Assembly (NCBI RefSeq): GCF_016919445.1
Contig: NZ_CP070356.1
Span: 4,591,502 to 4,655,501, forward strand
Reading direction: 5' to 3'
DNA: 64,000 nucleotides
Source of the DNA: Pseudomonas sp. PDNC002
GTDB lineage: Bacteria; Pseudomonadota; Gammaproteobacteria; Pseudomonadales; Pseudomonadaceae
Each line of letters starts with the position of its first letter. Position 1 is the first letter of the stretch. The notes under the pieces were generated by a model. That model had not been told where the DNA came from and did no database searches. It saw only the letters and a program-made list of their open reading frames with translations. Below, one piece after another: positions 15,586 through 47,222 of this stretch. The position numbers and the translations under genes are program-made.

Positions 15586-16437
15586 TCAGCCACCACCCGA
15601 GGCGAAGGGATGGCGCGCCAGGAAGTCCTCGATCAGCCGGTTGACCGGCTCGGGGCACTCCAGTGCGGCAAGGTGCGCCGTGCCGGCCATTACCACCGAC
15701 TCGGAAGCGGGAATGGCGGCGGCCATGCGCAGGGTCTCACTGACCGGGAAGGTGCGGTCCTCCTCGCCCGCCACCACCAGTACCGGCGTGCGGATACTTT
15801 GCATCAACTCCAGCTGGTCCGGGCGCTGCGGCACCACGCTCCGCACCGCCCAGGCCACGGAATCGATCCGGCACCGGCGCAAGGCCCGGCGGATAGATTC
15901 GCCGACCTGTGGCCGTTCGCGATCCGAGGTCGGCCCGGTGAAGGCGCGCACCGCACTGCGGATCATCGGCCCCTTGAAGCCGCCCTGCCAGCGCACGATG
16001 CGCGCCATCAGCGGAAATTCGATGCGGTGGCGCAGCCCAGCCGGCGAGGCCGTACAGTTCATCAGCACAGCGGCGCCAATGCGATGCGGATAGCGCGCCG
16101 CGAAGGTGCCACCGATCATCCCGCCCCAGGAATTGCCGACGAAGTGGCCACGCTCGATGCCCAGTTCATCCAGCACTTGCGCCACGCAGCGCGCGCACTC
16201 TCCGAAACTGAAGGCACGGCACAACGGCTCGCTGTCACCGTGGCCGGGCGGGTCGATCAGCACCACGCGGTAGTGCTCGCCGAAATGCGCCGCCTGGGCG
16301 AGCCACATGTCGCTGCTCATCAACAGGCTGGACCAGAACAGGATCGCCTCGCCGCGGCCCTGACAGCGCACATGCAGGCGCCCCAGGCAGGTAACTATGT
16401 CGTGGTGTTCGAAGCTATCGGAAGCGGCGCGGGTCAT
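15586..16437 (-). CDS. Alpha/beta hydrolase
   Basis: 283 residues, ATG 16437 preceded by GGAGA. Alpha/beta-hydrolase fold: oxyanion region FWSSLLMSSDMW, DPPGHGDSEP after strand 4, nucleophile elbow GNSWGG (Ser about 103), acid on a VAGEEDRTFP strand (about 221-230) and a terminal GTAHLAALECP histidine. This is the 3-oxoadipate enol-lactonase/ester hydrolase-like subgroup, but the substrate is not evident. It converges on the NodT gene with only 7 bp between the stops. Confidence 0.88.
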   Translation of the reverse strand: MTRAASDSFEHHDIVTCLGRLHVRCQGRGEAILFWSSLLMSSDMWLAQAAHFGEHYRVVLIDPPGHGDSEPLCRAFSFGECARCVAQVLDELGIERGHFVGNSWGGMIGGTFAARYPHRIGAAVLMNCTASPAGLRHRIEFPLMARIVRWQGGFKGPMIRSAVRAFTGPTSDRERPQVGESIRRALRRCRIDSVAWAVRSVVPQRPDQLELMQSIRTPVLVVAGEEDRTFPVSETLRMAAAIPASESVVMAGTAHLAALECPEPVNRLIEDFLARHPFASGGG

Positions 16438-16519
16438 GGCTGTCTCCAGGGGGAAGCCTTGATCCTAGATAAGCCGGCGGCGGGCAGCAGCCGGGATAAC
16501 CCGGCGTGATAGTGGCCGA

Positions 16520-17137
16520 TCAGTGGCTGATCCTGCCCTCGCGCAAGTCCTTGGCCACACGCAACTGCATTTCGTAGGCCGGCGCCTCCACCGCATTGAA
16601 ATTCTGCGTGTAGCGCGTGGCGAAACCCTGCACACCCCATTCCTGATACTGCTTCACGTGCCACAGCTCGTGGGCCCAGAGGGCAACGTCCTTCTGCGCA
16701 TCTTCCTCGCTGCGGAAGACGATCACGTCCACCAGCGTGACGGCCTCGGTATCGGGGTTCTGCATCATCGCCTGGGCCGCGTTCAACTGGTCCAGCGCGC
16801 CGGTGGAGTAGCGGGCCGCCATCAACACTTCGTCCGGCAGGTAACCCTGGAGTTGCGCGCGGATTTCCAGCGGGATCGGCTGGGTGCCGCCCTGGGCGGC
16901 CTGGTCGCGGGATTGCTGCAGCCACACGGCCAAGGCCTGGGCAGCGACCTTGCTGGCGTCGGAGAACACCGGGCCGAGTACGGCACCGATGTCCGGCAGG
17001 CAGACGCAGGTATCCAGGCAGACCTGGCGCTGGCCCGCCGGGCAGGCGCTGGCGCTGGCGCTGGCGGGAACGGACACGGCCAACCCGGCGAGCAGCGCCA
17101 GGGCGCGCAGGAAGCGGGTCGGGAAGTGGGATGGCAT
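16520..17137 (-). CDS. Secreted DUF4157-like protein with HExxH metallopeptidase motif
   Basis: 205 residues from ATG 17137, beginning with a clear signal peptide (MPSHFPTRFLRALALLAGLAVSVPASASA). Two Cys pairs follow (CPAGQRQVCLDTCVC). The motif WAHELWHVKQYQEWG contains HELWH, the zinc-binding HExxH of the DUF4157/M-class minimal metallopeptidase fold, with ARYTQNFNAVEAPAYEMQ after it supplying a possible third ligand (Glu). An upstream in-frame extension to 17305 has no signal sequence and is rejected. Likely periplasmic or secreted; substrate unknown. Confidence 0.8.
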   Translation of the reverse strand: MPSHFPTRFLRALALLAGLAVSVPASASASACPAGQRQVCLDTCVCLPDIGAVLGPVFSDASKVAAQALAVWLQQSRDQAAQGGTQPIPLEIRAQLQGYLPDEVLMAARYSTGALDQLNAAQAMMQNPDTEAVTLVDVIVFRSEEDAQKDVALWAHELWHVKQYQEWGVQGFATRYTQNFNAVEAPAYEMQLRVAKDLREGRISH

Positions 17138-17261
17138 GCGAACTCCGGTACGGTGTGGAGGATATCGGTAGCGCTTGGACCACGGCGCGGCGCGATCATG
17201 CCACGGCGCGAGCGAAAAGAGCGCTGGCGCGGCCCAGGAAATTTCTGCTAGCTTCTGCTCC

Positions 17262-17324
17262 ATGAATGCCGCCAACCGCACCTTCCAGCAGATTATTACC
17301 ACCATCGCTCCGATGGTGGGTTAG
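17262..17324 (+). CDS. Candidate 20-residue leader peptide of an attenuator
   Basis: ATG 17262 to TAG 17322-17324 encodes 20 residues ending QQIITTIAPMVG. The last nine sense codons and the stop lie inside hairpin 1:2 of the structure described for 17299-17367, the placement expected of a ribosome-read leader peptide. Ile and Thr codons (ATT ATT ACC ACC ATC) enter the first stem arm. There is no good Shine-Dalgarno sequence, so either initiation is leaderless from a promoter ending near TGCTAGCTT (17246-17254) or the peptide is not made. Not recognised as a known leader. Confidence 0.45.
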   Translation: MNAANRTFQQIITTIAPMVG

Positions 17325-17367
17325 CGCATTCCGCAGACAACCGAACCCGCCTCCCGGCGGGTTTTTT
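17299..17367 (+). promoter_or_regulatory. Candidate transcription attenuator with alternative hairpins and Rho-independent terminator
   Basis: Region 1 (17299-17307, CCACCATCG) pairs with 17311-17319 (CGATGGTGG). Region 2 GGTGGGTT (17315-17322) can instead pair with region 3 AACCCGCC (17344-17351) with one G-U wobble. Region 3 also pairs perfectly with region 4 GGCGGGTT (17356-17363), an 8-bp stem followed by six T (17362-17367), a textbook terminator. Region 2 and region 4 are therefore near-identical competitors for region 3. The layout equals amino-acid operon attenuators. The DUF4440 gene starts 40 bp downstream. Confidence 0.6.
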
Positions 17368-17406
17368 AATGCCCGCCGTCCGAGGCTCCCCGACGAGGAG
17401 ATACCG

Positions 17407-17811
17407 ATGGACCAGGCATTCCCCCCACTACAGCACCCGCTGCAAGCGCTCATCCAGGCCGCTGACGAAGCCATCGGCCGCGAGGATTTCGACGCGCTGA
17501 TCGACTTCTACAGCGATGACGCCCTGCTGGTGGTCAAGCCCGGCCTGCTCGCGCGCGGCAAAGCGCAGATCCGCCAGGCCTTCGTCGCCATCGCCGAGCA
17601 CTTCGGGCACAACCTGCGGGTGCGCCAGGGCCGCCTGGAAATCCTCGAGACCGGCGATACCGCCCTGGTGGTCGCGCAGACCCTGCTGGACACCAGCCAC
17701 GGCAAGCTGACCCGCCGCGCCACCTACGTCTTTCGCCGCGGGGCCGATGGCGCCTGGCGCTGCGCCGTGGACAACTCCTACGGCACCGACCTGCTGGAGG
17801 CGACGACATGA
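17407..17811 (+). CDS. DUF4440/SgcJ-like (NTF2-fold) protein
   Basis: 134 residues from ATG 17407, preceded by GAGGAG at good spacing; the open frame further upstream crosses the terminator hairpin and is not coding. The NTF2-like fold is seen in ADEAIGREDFDALIDFYSDDALLVVKPG, ARGKAQIRQAFVAIAEHF and the final WRCAVDNSYGTDLL strand. Such small alpha+beta barrels act as isomerases, hydratases or ligand-binding proteins; no catalytic set can be assigned. It follows the attenuator-like leader and overlaps the kinase gene by 4 bp, so the two are translationally coupled. Confidence 0.8.
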   Translation: MDQAFPPLQHPLQALIQAADEAIGREDFDALIDFYSDDALLVVKPGLLARGKAQIRQAFVAIAEHFGHNLRVRQGRLEILETGDTALVVAQTLLDTSHGKLTRRATYVFRRGADGAWRCAVDNSYGTDLLEATT

Positions 17812-18293
17812 GTCCGGGCACATTGCATCTACTGTGTGGCAAGGCGGCGTCAGGCAAATCCTGCCTGGCGCGGCAGTTGGCCGAGGCGCCCGGCACCGTG
17901 ATGCTGGCCGAGGAGCAGTGGCTGGCCGAGCTGTTCCCCTGGGGCATCAGCAACCCAGACGACTACCAGCTCTATGCCCGGCGCGTGCGCAAGGTGATGG
18001 GGCCGCACGTGGTCGGCCTGCTGCGCGCCGGCACCAGCGTGGTGCTGGATATTCCCGCCAATACCCTGGCCGACCGCCGTTGGCTGATCGACCTGGCCGA
18101 ACAGGCCGGCGCGGCGCATTGCTTGCACTTCCTCGACGTCGACCCGGCCACCTGCCGTAGCCGTCTGTTGGCACGCCATGCCATTGCGCCGCTGGCGGCC
18201 CCGCTGGACCCGGCCGGCTACGAGGCGCTCAACCGCTTCTTCGTCGCCCCGCGCCCGGAGGAAAAACTGCGGGTGCAGCGCCATGGCGCCTGA
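17808..18293 (+). CDS. P-loop kinase-like AAA ATPase (zeta-toxin/kinase type)
   Basis: 161 residues. Walker A is GKAASGKS near the N-terminus (MSPGTLHLLCGKAASGKSCL). A short protein of this kind with GTSVVLDIPANTLADRRWL (strand carrying the Walker B-like Asp) and a late arginine-bearing lid (TCRSRLLARH) fits the gluconate-kinase/zeta-toxin-like group of small-molecule kinases. It starts within the stop of the DUF4440 gene (ATGA). No antitoxin gene is adjacent, so a toxin role is not supported. Confidence 0.8.
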   Translation: MSPGTLHLLCGKAASGKSCLARQLAEAPGTVMLAEEQWLAELFPWGISNPDDYQLYARRVRKVMGPHVVGLLRAGTSVVLDIPANTLADRRWLIDLAEQAGAAHCLHFLDVDPATCRSRLLARHAIAPLAAPLDPAGYEALNRFFVAPRPEEKLRVQRHGA

Positions 18294-18350
18294 GCGCGTA
18301 GAATCGCCGCCCCGATCCGCCGAATCAGCCTGTGTAGAAAGACCCGAAGC

Positions 18351-19289
18351 ATGAACACCGACGCCATCGCTACCCTGCGCGAGCAACTGCTTGCGGCCCT
18401 GAACCCAGCCCCTGCGGAGACCCGCCGCCTGTTCCACGGGCGCGGCCGGCGTTGGCCGGGGCTGGAGCACGTGACCGCAGACTGGCTGGAAGGCGTGCTG
18501 CTGGTTTCGCTGTTCCGCGAGCCTGCCGAAGACGAGCTGGCGGCACTCAGGGCGATGCTGGTCGAACTGGCGCAAAGCGAAACCTGGCGCGCCACCGGCG
18601 CCCGCAGCCTGATGCTGCAGCACCGCTACACCCTGGAAAGCACGATGGAAGTCCTCCACGGCGAGGCATTCGACGGCTGGCAGATCACCGAGCACGGGCT
18701 GCGCTACCAACTGGACCTGGGCCGCAAGCAGAACAACGGCCTGTTCCTCGACATGCGCTACGGCCGCCAGTGGGTACAGGCCAACGCCAACGGCCTGCGT
18801 GTGCTCAATCTGTTCGCCTACACCTGCGGCTTCTCCGTGGCGGCCATCGCCGGCGGCGCGCAGAAGGTGGTCAACCTCGACATGGCCCGCACCGCGCTCA
18901 GCCGTGGTCGCGACAACCACCGCCTGAACAGCCACGACTTGTCGAAGGTCAGCTTCCTCGACCACGACCTGTTCAAGTCCTGGGGCAAGGTGAAGAAATC
19001 CGGCCCCTACGACCTGATCATCATCGACCCACCGAGCTTCCAGAAAGGCAGCTTCGTCCTCGATAAGGACTACGCCCGCGTCCTGCGCCGCCTGCCGGAA
19101 CTGCTGGACGGCGCTGGCACCGTACTGGCCTGCGTGAACGACCCGGCCGTTGGCGTCGACTTCCTGCTCCAGGGCATGGCCGCCGAGGCGCCGCAGCTGC
19201 GCTTCGTCGAGCGCCTGGAGAACCCGCCGGAATTCGCCGATATCGAGGAAGACAGCGGCCTGAAGGCCCTCGTATTCCAGCTGGATTGA
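18351..19289 (+). CDS. Class I SAM-dependent methyltransferase (RlmI/RlmK-like)
   Basis: 312 residues. The SAM-binding motif I is VLNLFAYTCGFSVAAIAGGA, motif II NLDMARTALSRGRDNHRLN and the catalytic/target-binding loop DLIIIDPPSFQKG. FLDMRYGRQWV before motif I is typical of the PF10672 methyltransferase group related to E. coli YccW/RlmI, 23S rRNA cytosine methyltransferases, though it lacks an N-terminal PUA domain. An RNA substrate is therefore likely but unproven. It is followed at once by a palindromic repeat. Confidence 0.85.
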   Translation: MNTDAIATLREQLLAALNPAPAETRRLFHGRGRRWPGLEHVTADWLEGVLLVSLFREPAEDELAALRAMLVELAQSETWRATGARSLMLQHRYTLESTMEVLHGEAFDGWQITEHGLRYQLDLGRKQNNGLFLDMRYGRQWVQANANGLRVLNLFAYTCGFSVAAIAGGAQKVVNLDMARTALSRGRDNHRLNSHDLSKVSFLDHDLFKSWGKVKKSGPYDLIIIDPPSFQKGSFVLDKDYARVLRRLPELLDGAGTVLACVNDPAVGVDFLLQGMAAEAPQLRFVERLENPPEFADIEEDSGLKALVFQLD

Positions 19290-19290
19290 T

Positions 19291-19385
19291 CCGTAGGGCG
19301 CATAACGCCTACGGCGTTATCCGCCAAATCATCGCGCCATGACGCAAGAACGGCGGATAACCGTGAACGGTTATTCGCCCTACGT
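19291..19385. repeat. 95-bp palindromic MITE-like repeat, copy A
   Basis: Outer arms GTAGGGCG and CGCCCTAC, with inner CATAACG...CGTTATCCGCC and GGCGGATAACCG...CGGTTATTCG, make a long imperfect palindrome directly after the methyltransferase stop. A second copy of the same organisation lies at 44612-44703. No transposase is attached. Confidence 0.8.
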
Positions 19386-19450
19386 CGGTAGCCTCACCCG
19401 ATGAAAGGCCGCCAGAACCCTTGCGGCCAAGCCACCATCGCGCCATCCTT

Positions 19451-19474
19451 GGCACTGTATGTAAAACCAGTGCC
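19451..19474. promoter_or_regulatory. Probable LexA operator of the VRR-NUC/helicase operon
   Basis: A palindrome with perfect 7-bp arms GGCACTG and CAGTGCC encloses TATGTAAAAC, giving CTG-N10-CAG, the minimal LexA recognition pattern. It lies 5 bp before the ATG at 19480. It departs from the full CTGT-N8-ACAG at one base (CCAG). SOS control of the downstream DNA-repair genes would make biological sense. Confidence 0.6.
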
Positions 19475-19479
19475 TGCCG

Positions 19480-21129
19480 ATGCCCGCGCCGCTCGACCCC
19501 AGCCTCTACTACCTGACCAACTTCCACCGCGCCCTCGACTGGATCGACGAACGCTACGCCGACCTGCTCGACGCCGAGGAAGCTCGGTTCATCGCGGACT
19601 TCCGCGCGCTGCCGCTGCCTTCGCGGGCGCTGTTGGTGCGACTGGTCATGCGCAAGGGGCCGCATTTTCGTGCCGGCAAGCTGAGCTATGCCGAGATCGG
19701 CGATATCCCCGAGGCCGCCGCGCCGCTGCTGGAGCTGGGCTGGCTGGTCGATGACTACCCGCTGGCACTGGACGAACTGCTGCCACTGCTGCTCAAGGAC
19801 GAACTGCTCGCGCGCTTCCGCGACGACCTGCCGCGTGGCTCGCTGAAGAAGGCCGAGTTGTACGAACACCTGCACGCCTATCACGAGCAGGTGCAGCCGT
19901 TCGAAGGCTGGTACCCGCAACTCGACTGCCTCTACACCTTGATGGCGACGCCGCTGTGCGACCGCCTGCGCCTGCTGTTCTTCGGCAACCTGCAGCAGGA
20001 CTGGTCCGAATTCGTCCTCGCCGACCTCGGCATCTTCCGCTACGAAAGCGTCCCCTTCACGCCCGACTCCCGCGCCTTCCGCCGCCGCGATGAGCTGGAG
20101 GCCTACATCCACCTGTGGAACGGTGCCGTCCGCTTTGAAACTGGCGAGCCCATCGCCGATCTGCTGGCCGAACTGGGCGAGTTCCGCAGCGACAACGTCT
20201 ACCTGCAAGCCCGCCACGGCCGCCTGCTGTACCGCATGGCCTACCAGTTGGAGCGTGAAGGCGAGCTGGACGCCGCCCTGGCGCTTTATCAGCAAACCTC
20301 CGCGGGTGGCTCGCGGCAGCGGCAGATTCGCGTGCTGGAACGTCTACAGCGCTTCGAGGATGCGCATGCTCTGGTCCAGGCCGCACTAGCCGCGCCGGAA
20401 AGCGACGGCGAGCTGCAGCTTGTGGAGCGTGCGCTGACGCGACTGGTCCGCCAGCTTGGCCTGCCGAAGGAAAAAGCGGCCAAGCCCGTACCGCCGTTGC
20501 GTATCGACCTGGAACTGCCGCGCCCCGACGTCAACGTCGAATTCGCCGTGCAATCCGTGCTCCACGAGGAAGAGGCGCCAGTGCACTACGTGGAAAACGC
20601 GCTGGTCTGCAGCCTGTTCGGCCTGCTCTGCTGGGAGGTGATCTTCGCCCCGCTGCCCGGCGCCTTCTTCCACCCCTTCCAGGCCGGGCCGAGCGATCTG
20701 TATCGCGGCGATTTCGTCAGCCGCCGCGCCGAGGCCTTCGCCGCACGCCTGGCACTGCTGGACAACGACGCCTATCTGGCGGCGATCCGTGAGACTTACG
20801 CCGCCAAGCACGGCATCCTCTCGCCGTTCGTGCACTGGGAGCTGCTGGACGAAAATCTGCTGGAACAGGCCCTGCACTGCCTGCCGGCGGCGCACCTGAA
20901 GCTGTGGTTCGAGCGCCTGCTGGCCGACCCGAAGGCCAACCGCGCCGGCATGCCCGACCTGATCCAGTTCTGGCCCGGCGAAGCGCGCTACCGGATGATC
21001 GAAGTGAAAGGCCCCGGCGATCGCCTGCAGGATAATCAAAAGCGCTGGCTGGCCTTCTGCGCCGAGCACGGCATGCCGGTGGAAGTCTGCTATGTGCGCT
21101 GGCAGGGCGAGGCGGACGAAAGCCAATGA
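19480..21129 (+). CDS. VRR-NUC domain nuclease (FAN1-like)
   Basis: 549 residues. The C-terminal VRR-NUC domain is clear: GMPDLIQFWPGEARY then MIEVKGPGDRLQDNQ (catalytic Asp and Glu-x-Lys, then Gln-Lys-Arg-W) at about 486-520. The long N-terminal part is mostly helical with TPR-like segments (LLYRMAYQLEREGELDAALALYQ), as in FAN1-type structure-selective nucleases. The probable LexA box stands 5 bp before the start codon. It overlaps the helicase gene by 4 bp, so the pair are produced together. Likely acts on flaps or interstrand-crosslink intermediates in the cytoplasm. Confidence 0.9.
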   Translation: MPAPLDPSLYYLTNFHRALDWIDERYADLLDAEEARFIADFRALPLPSRALLVRLVMRKGPHFRAGKLSYAEIGDIPEAAAPLLELGWLVDDYPLALDELLPLLLKDELLARFRDDLPRGSLKKAELYEHLHAYHEQVQPFEGWYPQLDCLYTLMATPLCDRLRLLFFGNLQQDWSEFVLADLGIFRYESVPFTPDSRAFRRRDELEAYIHLWNGAVRFETGEPIADLLAELGEFRSDNVYLQARHGRLLYRMAYQLEREGELDAALALYQQTSAGGSRQRQIRVLERLQRFEDAHALVQAALAAPESDGELQLVERALTRLVRQLGLPKEKAAKPVPPLRIDLELPRPDVNVEFAVQSVLHEEEAPVHYVENALVCSLFGLLCWEVIFAPLPGAFFHPFQAGPSDLYRGDFVSRRAEAFAARLALLDNDAYLAAIRETYAAKHGILSPFVHWELLDENLLEQALHCLPAAHLKLWFERLLADPKANRAGMPDLIQFWPGEARYRMIEVKGPGDRLQDNQKRWLAFCAEHGMPVEVCYVRWQGEADESQ

Positions 21130-46425: not shown

Positions 46426-47222
46426 GGTGACTCACCGAGGGGACTGGATCAGAGTGAAGCGCAACCCTGGCTTTTCCCCTGATACCGAAGTGCCGGAAGA
46501 GCGCAGCTGACACGCCCCACTCGAATACCCCCTCTCCCTTCAGGGAGAGGGCTGGGGAGAGGGCAACGCCCAGCGCCAAACGCTCCTTGGCCGCACATAC
46601 GACTCTGTAATCGCGAGCTTGCTCGCGAAGTAGCGCGCTCTAGATCCCGAGTCATTCTCGTCGCCACCCTCTCCCCGCCTTTCCTCCCGCATCAACCGAG
46701 GCACCTCACCCATCGGCACCGGTGCAAAACATGGAAGACGCCAAAGTCATTCACCAGCAGCACGACCTCCTCGCCACCACCCGTCACCAAGTGCGCTTCG
46801 CGAAAGAGATCATCATCCAGACGAAAAAGACCCGCTCGCGGATCAGATGCCCCCCCTCGCGGGCAACCAATCAGGGCTGGTTGTCGATGAGGACGCCGCA
46901 CAGAGGACGGTTGTAGCGGTGGAATACGGTGGGGATGTAGACGTCGCCCATGGAACAGCGCCTATGTTGAAGAAGCCGCCATGGCCGGCGCCAAACGGGT
47001 GGATGGCAGAACCGCGCAAGGTTGGCGAACCGGCAGACCCGAAGGTCCCCCTGCACGGCCCGCCATAGCAAACAGTCGTAGACGCATTGATGCGCCACCG
47101 TCTTACGAAGCGTTACCGTGCTTATTCCTTATGTTGGATTCACGCCGCCAAACCTGTCCCCTGTCGCTTTCACAGGGGTGACGGGGCCATGAGGAAGGAT
47201 TGCAGCAATCAAATATGGTCCA
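46426..47222. other. Gene-poor region with repeat remnants
   Basis: About 800 bp with no convincing gene. It holds a partial composite repeat (46527-46564), a REP half-site (TCGCGAGCTTGCTCGCGA near 46605) and only short open frames on both strands that lack ribosome sites and match no family. A minus-strand stretch around 46950-47000 reads IHPFGAGHGGFF, vaguely Fic-like, but without a surrounding frame. GC drops after about 47090 into the next gene. Confidence 0.55.
46527..46564. repeat. Partial composite repeat, copy 4
   Basis: CCCCCTCTCCCTTCAGGGAG followed by AGGGCTGGGGAGAGGGC; only one half of the larger element at 24003 and 44470. Confidence 0.65.

Follow-up and report, generated by a model that had tools for sequence, protein, structure and literature searches.

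Can a leader that is built like an amino-acid attenuator be a real one when the genes behind it belong to no amino-acid pathway? The question is raised by a short segment (17262-17367, forward strand) of the window, the 64,000-nucleotide stretch of Pseudomonas DNA analyzed here, in which the leader precedes genes for a DUF4440 protein and a small kinase. The element looks like a real attenuator whose parts had been correctly read in the original prediction: on re-reading, all of its coordinates (ORF, hairpin, 2:3 arm, terminator, T6 run and codons) were exact. To these we add membership of the Rfam P9 family, linkage to ilvA in related loci, and a stem, predicted by folding, around the ORF. 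From sequence comparison and modelled pairings, we propose, with a probability of roughly 0.83, that the P9 leader is a leaderless, ribosome-mediated attenuator responding to isoleucine (charged tRNA-Ile), and that in the window's clade it stands ahead of a DUF4440-kinase pair.

Anatomy of the leader

All parts of the leader lie on the forward strand. The leader peptide ORF, MNAANRTFQQIITTIAPMVG*, has 20 codons and occupies 17262-17324, with its ATG at 17262 and its TAG at 17322-17324. The putative control codons, ATT ATT ACC ACC ATC (Ile Ile Thr Thr Ile), were read from the sequence at 17292-17306; three of the 20 codons are Ile codons, all of them located at region 1. Region 1 (17299-17307) is the 5' arm of hairpin 1, a perfect helix of 9 bp whose 3' arm (17311-17319) is part of region 2. 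The antiterminator arm of region 2, GGTGGGTT (17315-17322), can pair with region 3, AACCCGCC (17344-17351), with one G-U. Region 3 is common to the antiterminator and the terminator, as it also forms a GC-rich stem with region 4 (17356-17363), the terminator 3' arm, and a run of six T (17362-17367, by sequence reading) completes an intrinsic terminator ahead of the first structural gene. Both arms of hairpin 1, region 3 and region 4 were assigned from sequence, folding and pair counts, and region 2 from sequence, 2:3 pair counts and the stall model.

The fold of 17262-17369 reached -41.5 kcal/mol (z -5.33), a value that none of 200 shuffles equalled. In this minimum-energy fold, a predicted stem encloses the ORF, its 5' arm (17264-17277) beginning at the start codon and its 3' arm lying at 17319-17331. 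When the leader was truncated before region 4, hairpin 1 and the enclosing stem formed and region 3 was left unpaired (z -2.72; 4 of 200 shuffles equal). A simple consensus scan of 16000-19500 recovered neither this terminator nor any sigma-70 promoter; two of the terminator's six T residues sit inside its stem.

The leader is a member of the Rfam P9 family

The Rfam scan assigned the element to RF00624, 'Pseudomonas sRNA P9' (17289-17365), with 52.3 bits against a gathering cut-off of 43. The entry is of type Gene (sRNA), and its model of 74 positions starts inside the ORF; the promoter, the start codon and the codons next to it lie outside the match. No Rfam leader family passed its cut-off within 17200-17420, where Trp_leader (RF00513) scored 23.1 bits against 41 and the permissive matches to Atu_C8, anti-hemB, isrK and Hrs1 fell far under their cut-offs. 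The original prediction knew of no described attenuator at this position. The element proved to be catalogued already, as sRNA P9. In the literature that we searched, P9 is nowhere described as an attenuator, and no attenuator is reported upstream of Pseudomonas ilvA or DUF4440, although the comparative survey of attenuators in proteobacteria by Vitreschak et al. (2004) may contain one.

P9 is present as a single copy in the window's genome and occurs in 23 of the 25 genus genomes searched. Among 348 family genomes, 173 match at E <= 0.001, with 162 above the cut-off, and all 14 control genomes are without a match. The search of the class, covering 321 genomes, gave matches at E <= 1e-4 in five, three of which pass the cut-off. 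Among the five, one belongs to the window's genome and another (L110, 32.3 bits) was judged to be due to chance. With a score over the Rfam cut-off and its presence in 23 of 25 genus genomes, the P9 leader exceeds chance.

In all, 170 loci were examined, 161 of them found by searching the genus and the family with P9. The other nine comprise three from the class search (L107-L109) and six from DUF4440 searches, so that the tally is tilted toward DUF4440. Among the loci of the 173 family genomes, 13, mostly the weakest matches, and the second matches of seven genomes were left out. Parsing covered 165 of the 170 loci, the remainder being L071, L109, L116, L125 and L184. Three of these (L109, L116 and L125) were read by hand, and L184 is a normal leader with one terminator base changed. 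In L071 (genome G338, contig C584), unrelated sequence stands in place of the 3' arm of the P9 terminator, which may reflect an insertion or a joint in the assembly.

The leader ORF is conserved and apparently leaderless

Every one of the 165 parsed leaders has an in-frame ATG and stop codon, as the attenuator reading predicts; the parsing script favored candidates with an in-frame ATG, without requiring one, and every locus had one. The ORFs have 16-23 codons, the ATG lies 6-14 codons before the core, and the stop is TAG in 139, TGA in 25 and TAA in one. Ile codons number 2-5 per leader in 165 of 165 (ATT 482, ATC 58, ATA 10). The Ile part of the proposed Ile/Thr signal is thus universal among the parsed leaders, and the Thr part is lineage-specific; from the codons, the signal is best read as isoleucine, of the branched-chain group, with threonine confined to certain lineages.

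The peptides themselves are diverse. The core IITAI is kept and the residues before it vary, giving 115 distinct peptides among the 165 loci; after the core, the reading shifts with loop length (L054, L107, L108 and L170) and the RNA arms remain unchanged. Since the residues vary and the frame shifts, conservation extends to the arms of the RNA, to Ile codons and to a stop close by, but not to the peptide as such. Were the ORF instead a functional small protein, with the hairpins merely its terminator, the conservation of the ORF and of IITAI would fit, but this many distinct peptides and post-core residues that follow loop length while the arms stay would not, and we give that explanation a next to negligible chance. 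In four loci of one genus (g6; L054, L063, L065 and L066), the leader stop, a TGA after ATT ACC, lies inside the hairpin loop, earlier than in other genera.

Upstream of the window's ORF, an extended -10 promoter element, TGCTAGCTT (17246-17254), was identified by sequence reading and by base counts of upstream regions; it lies 7 nt before the ATG. Across 162 distinct upstream regions, T occupies position -8 in 83% and -9 in 75%, and C occupies -1 in 95%. TTGAC occurs within 50 nt upstream in 143 of the 162, and the window is without it, that is, without a -35 element. Four-letter words resembling a Shine-Dalgarno sequence were found at -16 to -4 in only 2 of 162, in keeping with the original caveat that the ORF lacks such a site and would have to be translated leaderless. 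Transcription thus probably starts at the A of the ATG, and because there is no Shine-Dalgarno sequence and the -10 element abuts the ATG, we infer leaderless translation of the mRNA. The attenuator reading would account for a promoter that abuts an ATG without a Shine-Dalgarno sequence throughout the family.

Mutually exclusive pairings and a modelled ribosome stall

The pairing and stall analyses used 46 non-redundant leaders (<90% identical). In hairpin 1, the six core pairs formed in 98.2% of cells, and the pair 17301:17317 is A-U in place of G-C in 3 of the 46 leaders and G-U in another 3. This is the one 1:2 pair changed on both sides, a count that 225 of 500 column shuffles match. The 2:3 pairs formed in 90.8% of cells, and 102 of 500 column shuffles reach this percentage; 2:3 does no better than the shuffles because its arms hardly vary, and some of its fit is owed to the resemblance between the two hairpins. 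The 3:4 arms are nearly invariant. Of the covariation that the original prediction had looked to, hairpin 1 therefore supplies the G-C to A-U exchange, and 2:3 and 3:4 are uninformative, the 2:3 counts speaking neither for nor against an attenuator.

In the stall model, which is thermodynamic and not kinetic, the ribosome masks 13 nt, counted from the start of the A-site codon. With a modelled stall at the first Ile codons, region 3 pairing exceeded 0.5 in 46 of 46 leaders (mean 0.85; window 0.97). With the ribosome at the stop codon, it fell to a mean of 0.10 (<0.3 in 44 of 46; window 0.05). Without a ribosome, the mean was 0.27 and the window's value 0.11; 30 of 46 leaders were below 0.3 and seven were above 0.5, so termination is not the modelled default of those seven. 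The stalled result changed little with the mask: 9, 11, 15 and 17 nt gave 43, 46, 46 and 46 leaders of 46 above 0.5. With shuffled spacers, the stalled value averaged 0.45 and the observed one was reached in 108 of 2300. Among the further leaders read ahead of DUF4440 in other genomes, the fit was weaker for L116, with 0.43 at the stop codon, and for L125, with 0.94 in the absence of a ribosome. The mutually exclusive 1:2, 2:3 and 3:4 pairings of the original prediction are thus present in the sequence, and modelled stalling pairs region 3 in all 46 leaders.

Our model is as follows. Transcription would start at the ATG, and the 20-codon leader would then be translated as a leaderless mRNA. 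With ample isoleucine, the ribosome would reach the stop codon and cover region 2, leaving 3:4 to pair and transcription to terminate near 17367. With scarce Ile-tRNA, the ribosome would stall on ATT ATT and mask region 1; the 2:3 antiterminator would form, and transcription would continue into the DUF4440 and kinase genes. If no ribosome is present, hairpin 1 would form together with the enclosing stem, and the window's leader, though not every relative, would terminate by default.

To assess the enclosing stem, pairing between nucleotides 1-16 of the leader and the region of the stop codon was compared with that in shuffles. The window's stem has 11.5 expected pairs against 2.1 in shuffles, of which 1 in 100 was as high. 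Per locus, the shuffles in 100 that equalled the stem numbered 0 for L249, 1 for L001 and L251, 2 for L086 and L252, 5 for L250 and 7 for L116, then 14 for L084, 18 for L109 and L125, 33 for L089, 63 for L107, 72 for L108 and 76 for L118. The stem is thus no better than shuffles in L107, L108 and L118 and weak in L089, L109 and L125, and in a second control over the 46 leaders only five (L001, L171, L054, L052 and L209) had at most 5% of shuffles doing as well. The modelled enclosing stem is a feature of several leaders, and we do not claim it for the whole family.

Most related leaders precede ilvA

Threonine deaminase, the product of ilvA, catalyzes the first step toward isoleucine. A single threonine-deaminase homologue of 526 aa, from L055, served as the query for calling ilvA by similarity, and TIGR01124 confirmed the enzyme family in the genomes tested. 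The next gene was ilvA in 128 of the 165 parsed loci and DUF4440 followed by ilvA in 13, so that ilvA comes directly or after DUF4440 in 141. DUF4440 occurs without ilvA in 22 loci, and the contig ends in 2. The order DUF4440-kinase-methyltransferase was found in 16 loci (the window's and those of 15 close relatives), DUF4440-kinase in one, and DUF4440 alone in five, with no ilvA within 1.5-3.9 kb of sequence. The distances are short: similarity to ilvA starts at most 250 nt from the terminator in 128 of 128 loci and similarity to DUF4440 at most 150 nt in 35 of 35. The original view that the downstream genes are not biosynthetic therefore holds for the window and not for these 141 loci. In most of the Pseudomonadaceae loci examined the leader would accordingly serve ilvA, and in the window's clade a separate DUF4440-kinase cassette.

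Among named species, P. nicosulfuronedens and P. pseudonitroreducens are near neighbors of the window's clade, and the order P9-DUF4440-ilvA was seen in P. citronellolis, P. delhiensis, P. panipatensis, P. mangiferae and P. rhizoryzae. PA1325 of P. aeruginosa may be the DUF4440 protein of this family. One gene table in PMC5150637 lists PA1325 together with PA1326 (ilvA2), and PA0331 and PA1326 are given as IlvA paralogues in PMC9239102. One genome (G074) has two P9-type leaders, one before DUF4440 (L118, contig C27) and one before ilvA (L164, contig C11).

This linkage bears on whether P9 is a stand-alone, trans-acting sRNA, to which the ORF and the genes downstream would be incidental. Rfam's name and Gene type suggest such an RNA, termination would release a separate RNA of about 106 nt, and the trpL attenuator RNA of S. 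meliloti is described as acting in trans too (PMC7298713). A free sRNA would not be expected, however, to keep an ORF in 165 of 165 loci, nor to have ilvA or DUF4440 as the next gene in all 163 loci that are uncut by a contig end, and we regard this explanation as unlikely; a trans role of P9 could in any case add to a role in cis. Read as an attenuator, a catalogued small RNA would become a defined amino-acid switch in a well-studied genus.

A DUF4440-kinase cassette in the window's clade

The first gene after the window's terminator (17407-17811, forward strand) encodes a 134-aa SnoaL_3/DUF4440 NTF2-like protein, a YybH relative by Pfam and PDB comparison (2gxf, 'Hypothetical protein yybH', E 2.3e-40). 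Its stop is overlapped by the start of a small P-loop kinase gene of the AAA_33 family (17808-18293, forward strand; Pfam E 3.6e-23). The kinase model built from five sequences had a mean pLDDT of 79.5 (57-63 in the other four models), and the fold search returned only broad small-molecule and polynucleotide kinases as nearest folds. Both targets are outside isoleucine biosynthesis, and this attenuator-like copy is therefore not filed as an ilv operon leader. A role in anti-phage defence was set aside, as neither protein matches PADLOC at E <= 0.01.

Adjoining the leader, a divergent gene on the reverse strand (16523-17140) carries an eCIS_core domain (PF13699, E 1.6e-10). Elsewhere in the window, 46999-47070 on the reverse strand matches the C4 antisense RNA (RF01695, 52.2 bits against 45), presumably a phage-type regulator, so that this part is perhaps prophage material.

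The methyltransferase that follows the kinase, which has rRNA-methyltransferase relatives, was found in 12 of 12 genomes tested, and in the 11 besides the window's own no DUF4440 or kinase lies within 1.5 kb on each side. In a tree of 39 DUF4440 proteins, the window's clade falls outside the ilvA-linked Pseudomonas group (90/93, moderate support). Taken together, the methyltransferase without these neighbors in 11 relatives and the tree placement suggest that the cassette probably arrived as a leader-DUF4440-kinase unit. Derivation of the locus from an ilvA2 locus that lost its ilvA was set aside in favor of this separate cassette, with tree support that is moderate (90/93, 81/85).

Could the leader of this clade be a relic of a lost ilvA2 operon that no longer regulates anything? 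Copy number would suit a loss: the window's genome has one ilvA over the family cut-off, distant from P9, and among 18 further genomes the 11 clade members and two without P9 hold one full ilvA, and all five with P9-ilvA hold two. The leader is nevertheless intact in 16 of 16 clade loci, the tree, with its moderate support, sets the window's protein apart, and the order P9-DUF4440-kinase recurs in Advenella; we consider a relic highly improbable.

The methyltransferase also touches on what the leader senses. In erm-type leaders, the operon is opened by slowed translation of the leader. A leader of this antibiotic type, opened by any slowing and not by lack of isoleucine, would fit a window in which the kinase is followed by a methyltransferase with such relatives, and modelled stalls at many codons upstream of or in region 1 act alike (L249-L252 and others). 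It would not explain why Ile (or Ile/Leu/Val) codons are conserved or why ilvA is the commonest linked gene, and in 11 of 11 relatives the methyltransferase has neither DUF4440 nor the kinase within 1.5 kb on each side. We therefore find it very unlikely, and keep isoleucine as the proposed signal.

Leaders ahead of DUF4440 in other proteobacteria

Leaders before DUF4440 were found in Alpha-, Beta- and other Gammaproteobacteria. The order P9-DUF4440-kinase occurs in the betaproteobacterium Advenella incenata, and P9-DUF4440 in the alphaproteobacterium Pleomorphomonas oryzae and in an uncultured proteobacterium; the class search also gave two P9 leaders before DUF4440 (L107 and L108). At L109:1471-2136, a P9-like leader, MNTNLTQQIARIIIIP*, with 39.8 bits and thus under the cut-off, lies directly before a 171-aa P-loop kinase gene, and the window's kinase has no tblastn match to this kinase at E <= 1e-4.

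With a DUF4440 profile, 16 of the 398 phylum genomes searched gave a match, as did 6 of 297 in the order to which one of them (G811, counted in both) belongs. Reading upstream of DUF4440 revealed leaders at L116, L118, L125 and L249-L252 and none at L253. In a family with DUF4440 at nine loci (f181), no leader was read in the 330 nt upstream of eight (L124 excluded), and none of the nine had a P9 match at E <= 0.01. The genomes of G811 and L249-L252 belong to the window's phylum and to another class, and they appear to be alphaproteobacteria. The L249-L252 leaders, which are unlike in sequence, have 8-10 Ile/Leu/Val codons of 20; L125 has 9 of 21, and L116 only 3 of 16. Four of the seven leaders scored 30.6-37.6 bits against P9 and three had no match at E <= 0.01. 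As all seven are below the P9 cut-off, leaders of this function seem to extend beyond the family that Rfam P9 delimits.

A broader hypothesis, tentative and somewhat doubtful in our judgment, is that a leaderless attenuator for branched-chain amino acids is distributed, together with DUF4440 as one cassette, among Alpha-, Beta- and Gammaproteobacteria, placing a YybH-like protein and a kinase under isoleucine control, and that it was also joined to ilvA in Pseudomonas. If so, the YybH-like DUF4440 protein would be an unrecognized player in handling the product of threonine deaminase or in isoleucine starvation. The enclosing stem at the start codon would then act as an extra lock, with termination relieved only after a ribosome loads at the very 5' end. 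Already on the main attenuator reading, the uncharacterized YybH-like DUF4440 family would gain a first regulatory context, the supply of branched-chain amino acids. The loci also provide natural variants of a single leader type that differ in control codons and target genes.

Comparison with known systems

The threonine operon leader thrL has Ile and Thr codons, as does the window's leader, and Rfam's threonine leader has no match in 17200-17420 up to E = 1. The closest catalogued relative is Rfam P9 itself, of which the window's element is a member over the gathering score, although the Rfam model lacks the promoter, the start codon and the first codons.

In function, the nearest counterparts are the attenuators of E. 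coli ilvGMEDA and ilvBN and other Gram-negative branched-chain operons, which, as described in PMC6123439, likewise combine a leader peptide rich in branched-chain residues, alternative helices and an intrinsic terminator; ilvA is a target both of these E. coli-type attenuators and of P9 relatives. Unlike the E. coli ilv leaders, the P9 leader has 20 codons and not 32, is apparently leaderless, and stands here before DUF4440 and a kinase. The S. meliloti trpL attenuator, according to PMC7298713, has a transcript that starts at the leader ATG, as is proposed for P9, so that a leaderless attenuator has a precedent; attenuation and the release of an RNA are further parallels. It differs in sensing Trp and in controlling trpE(G), and the likeness drawn here is one of design. 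The ilvB-II and ilvB-OMG motifs, as presented in PMC10272879, are also read as attenuators with upstream ORFs rich in branched-chain codons, with Thr in addition for ilvB-OMG. They stand before ilvB in other bacteria, and we claim no homology with P9. Beside these systems, three points would remain unusual in the P9 leader as read from its sequence: its apparently leaderless design, its spread over several classes and its non-biosynthetic targets.
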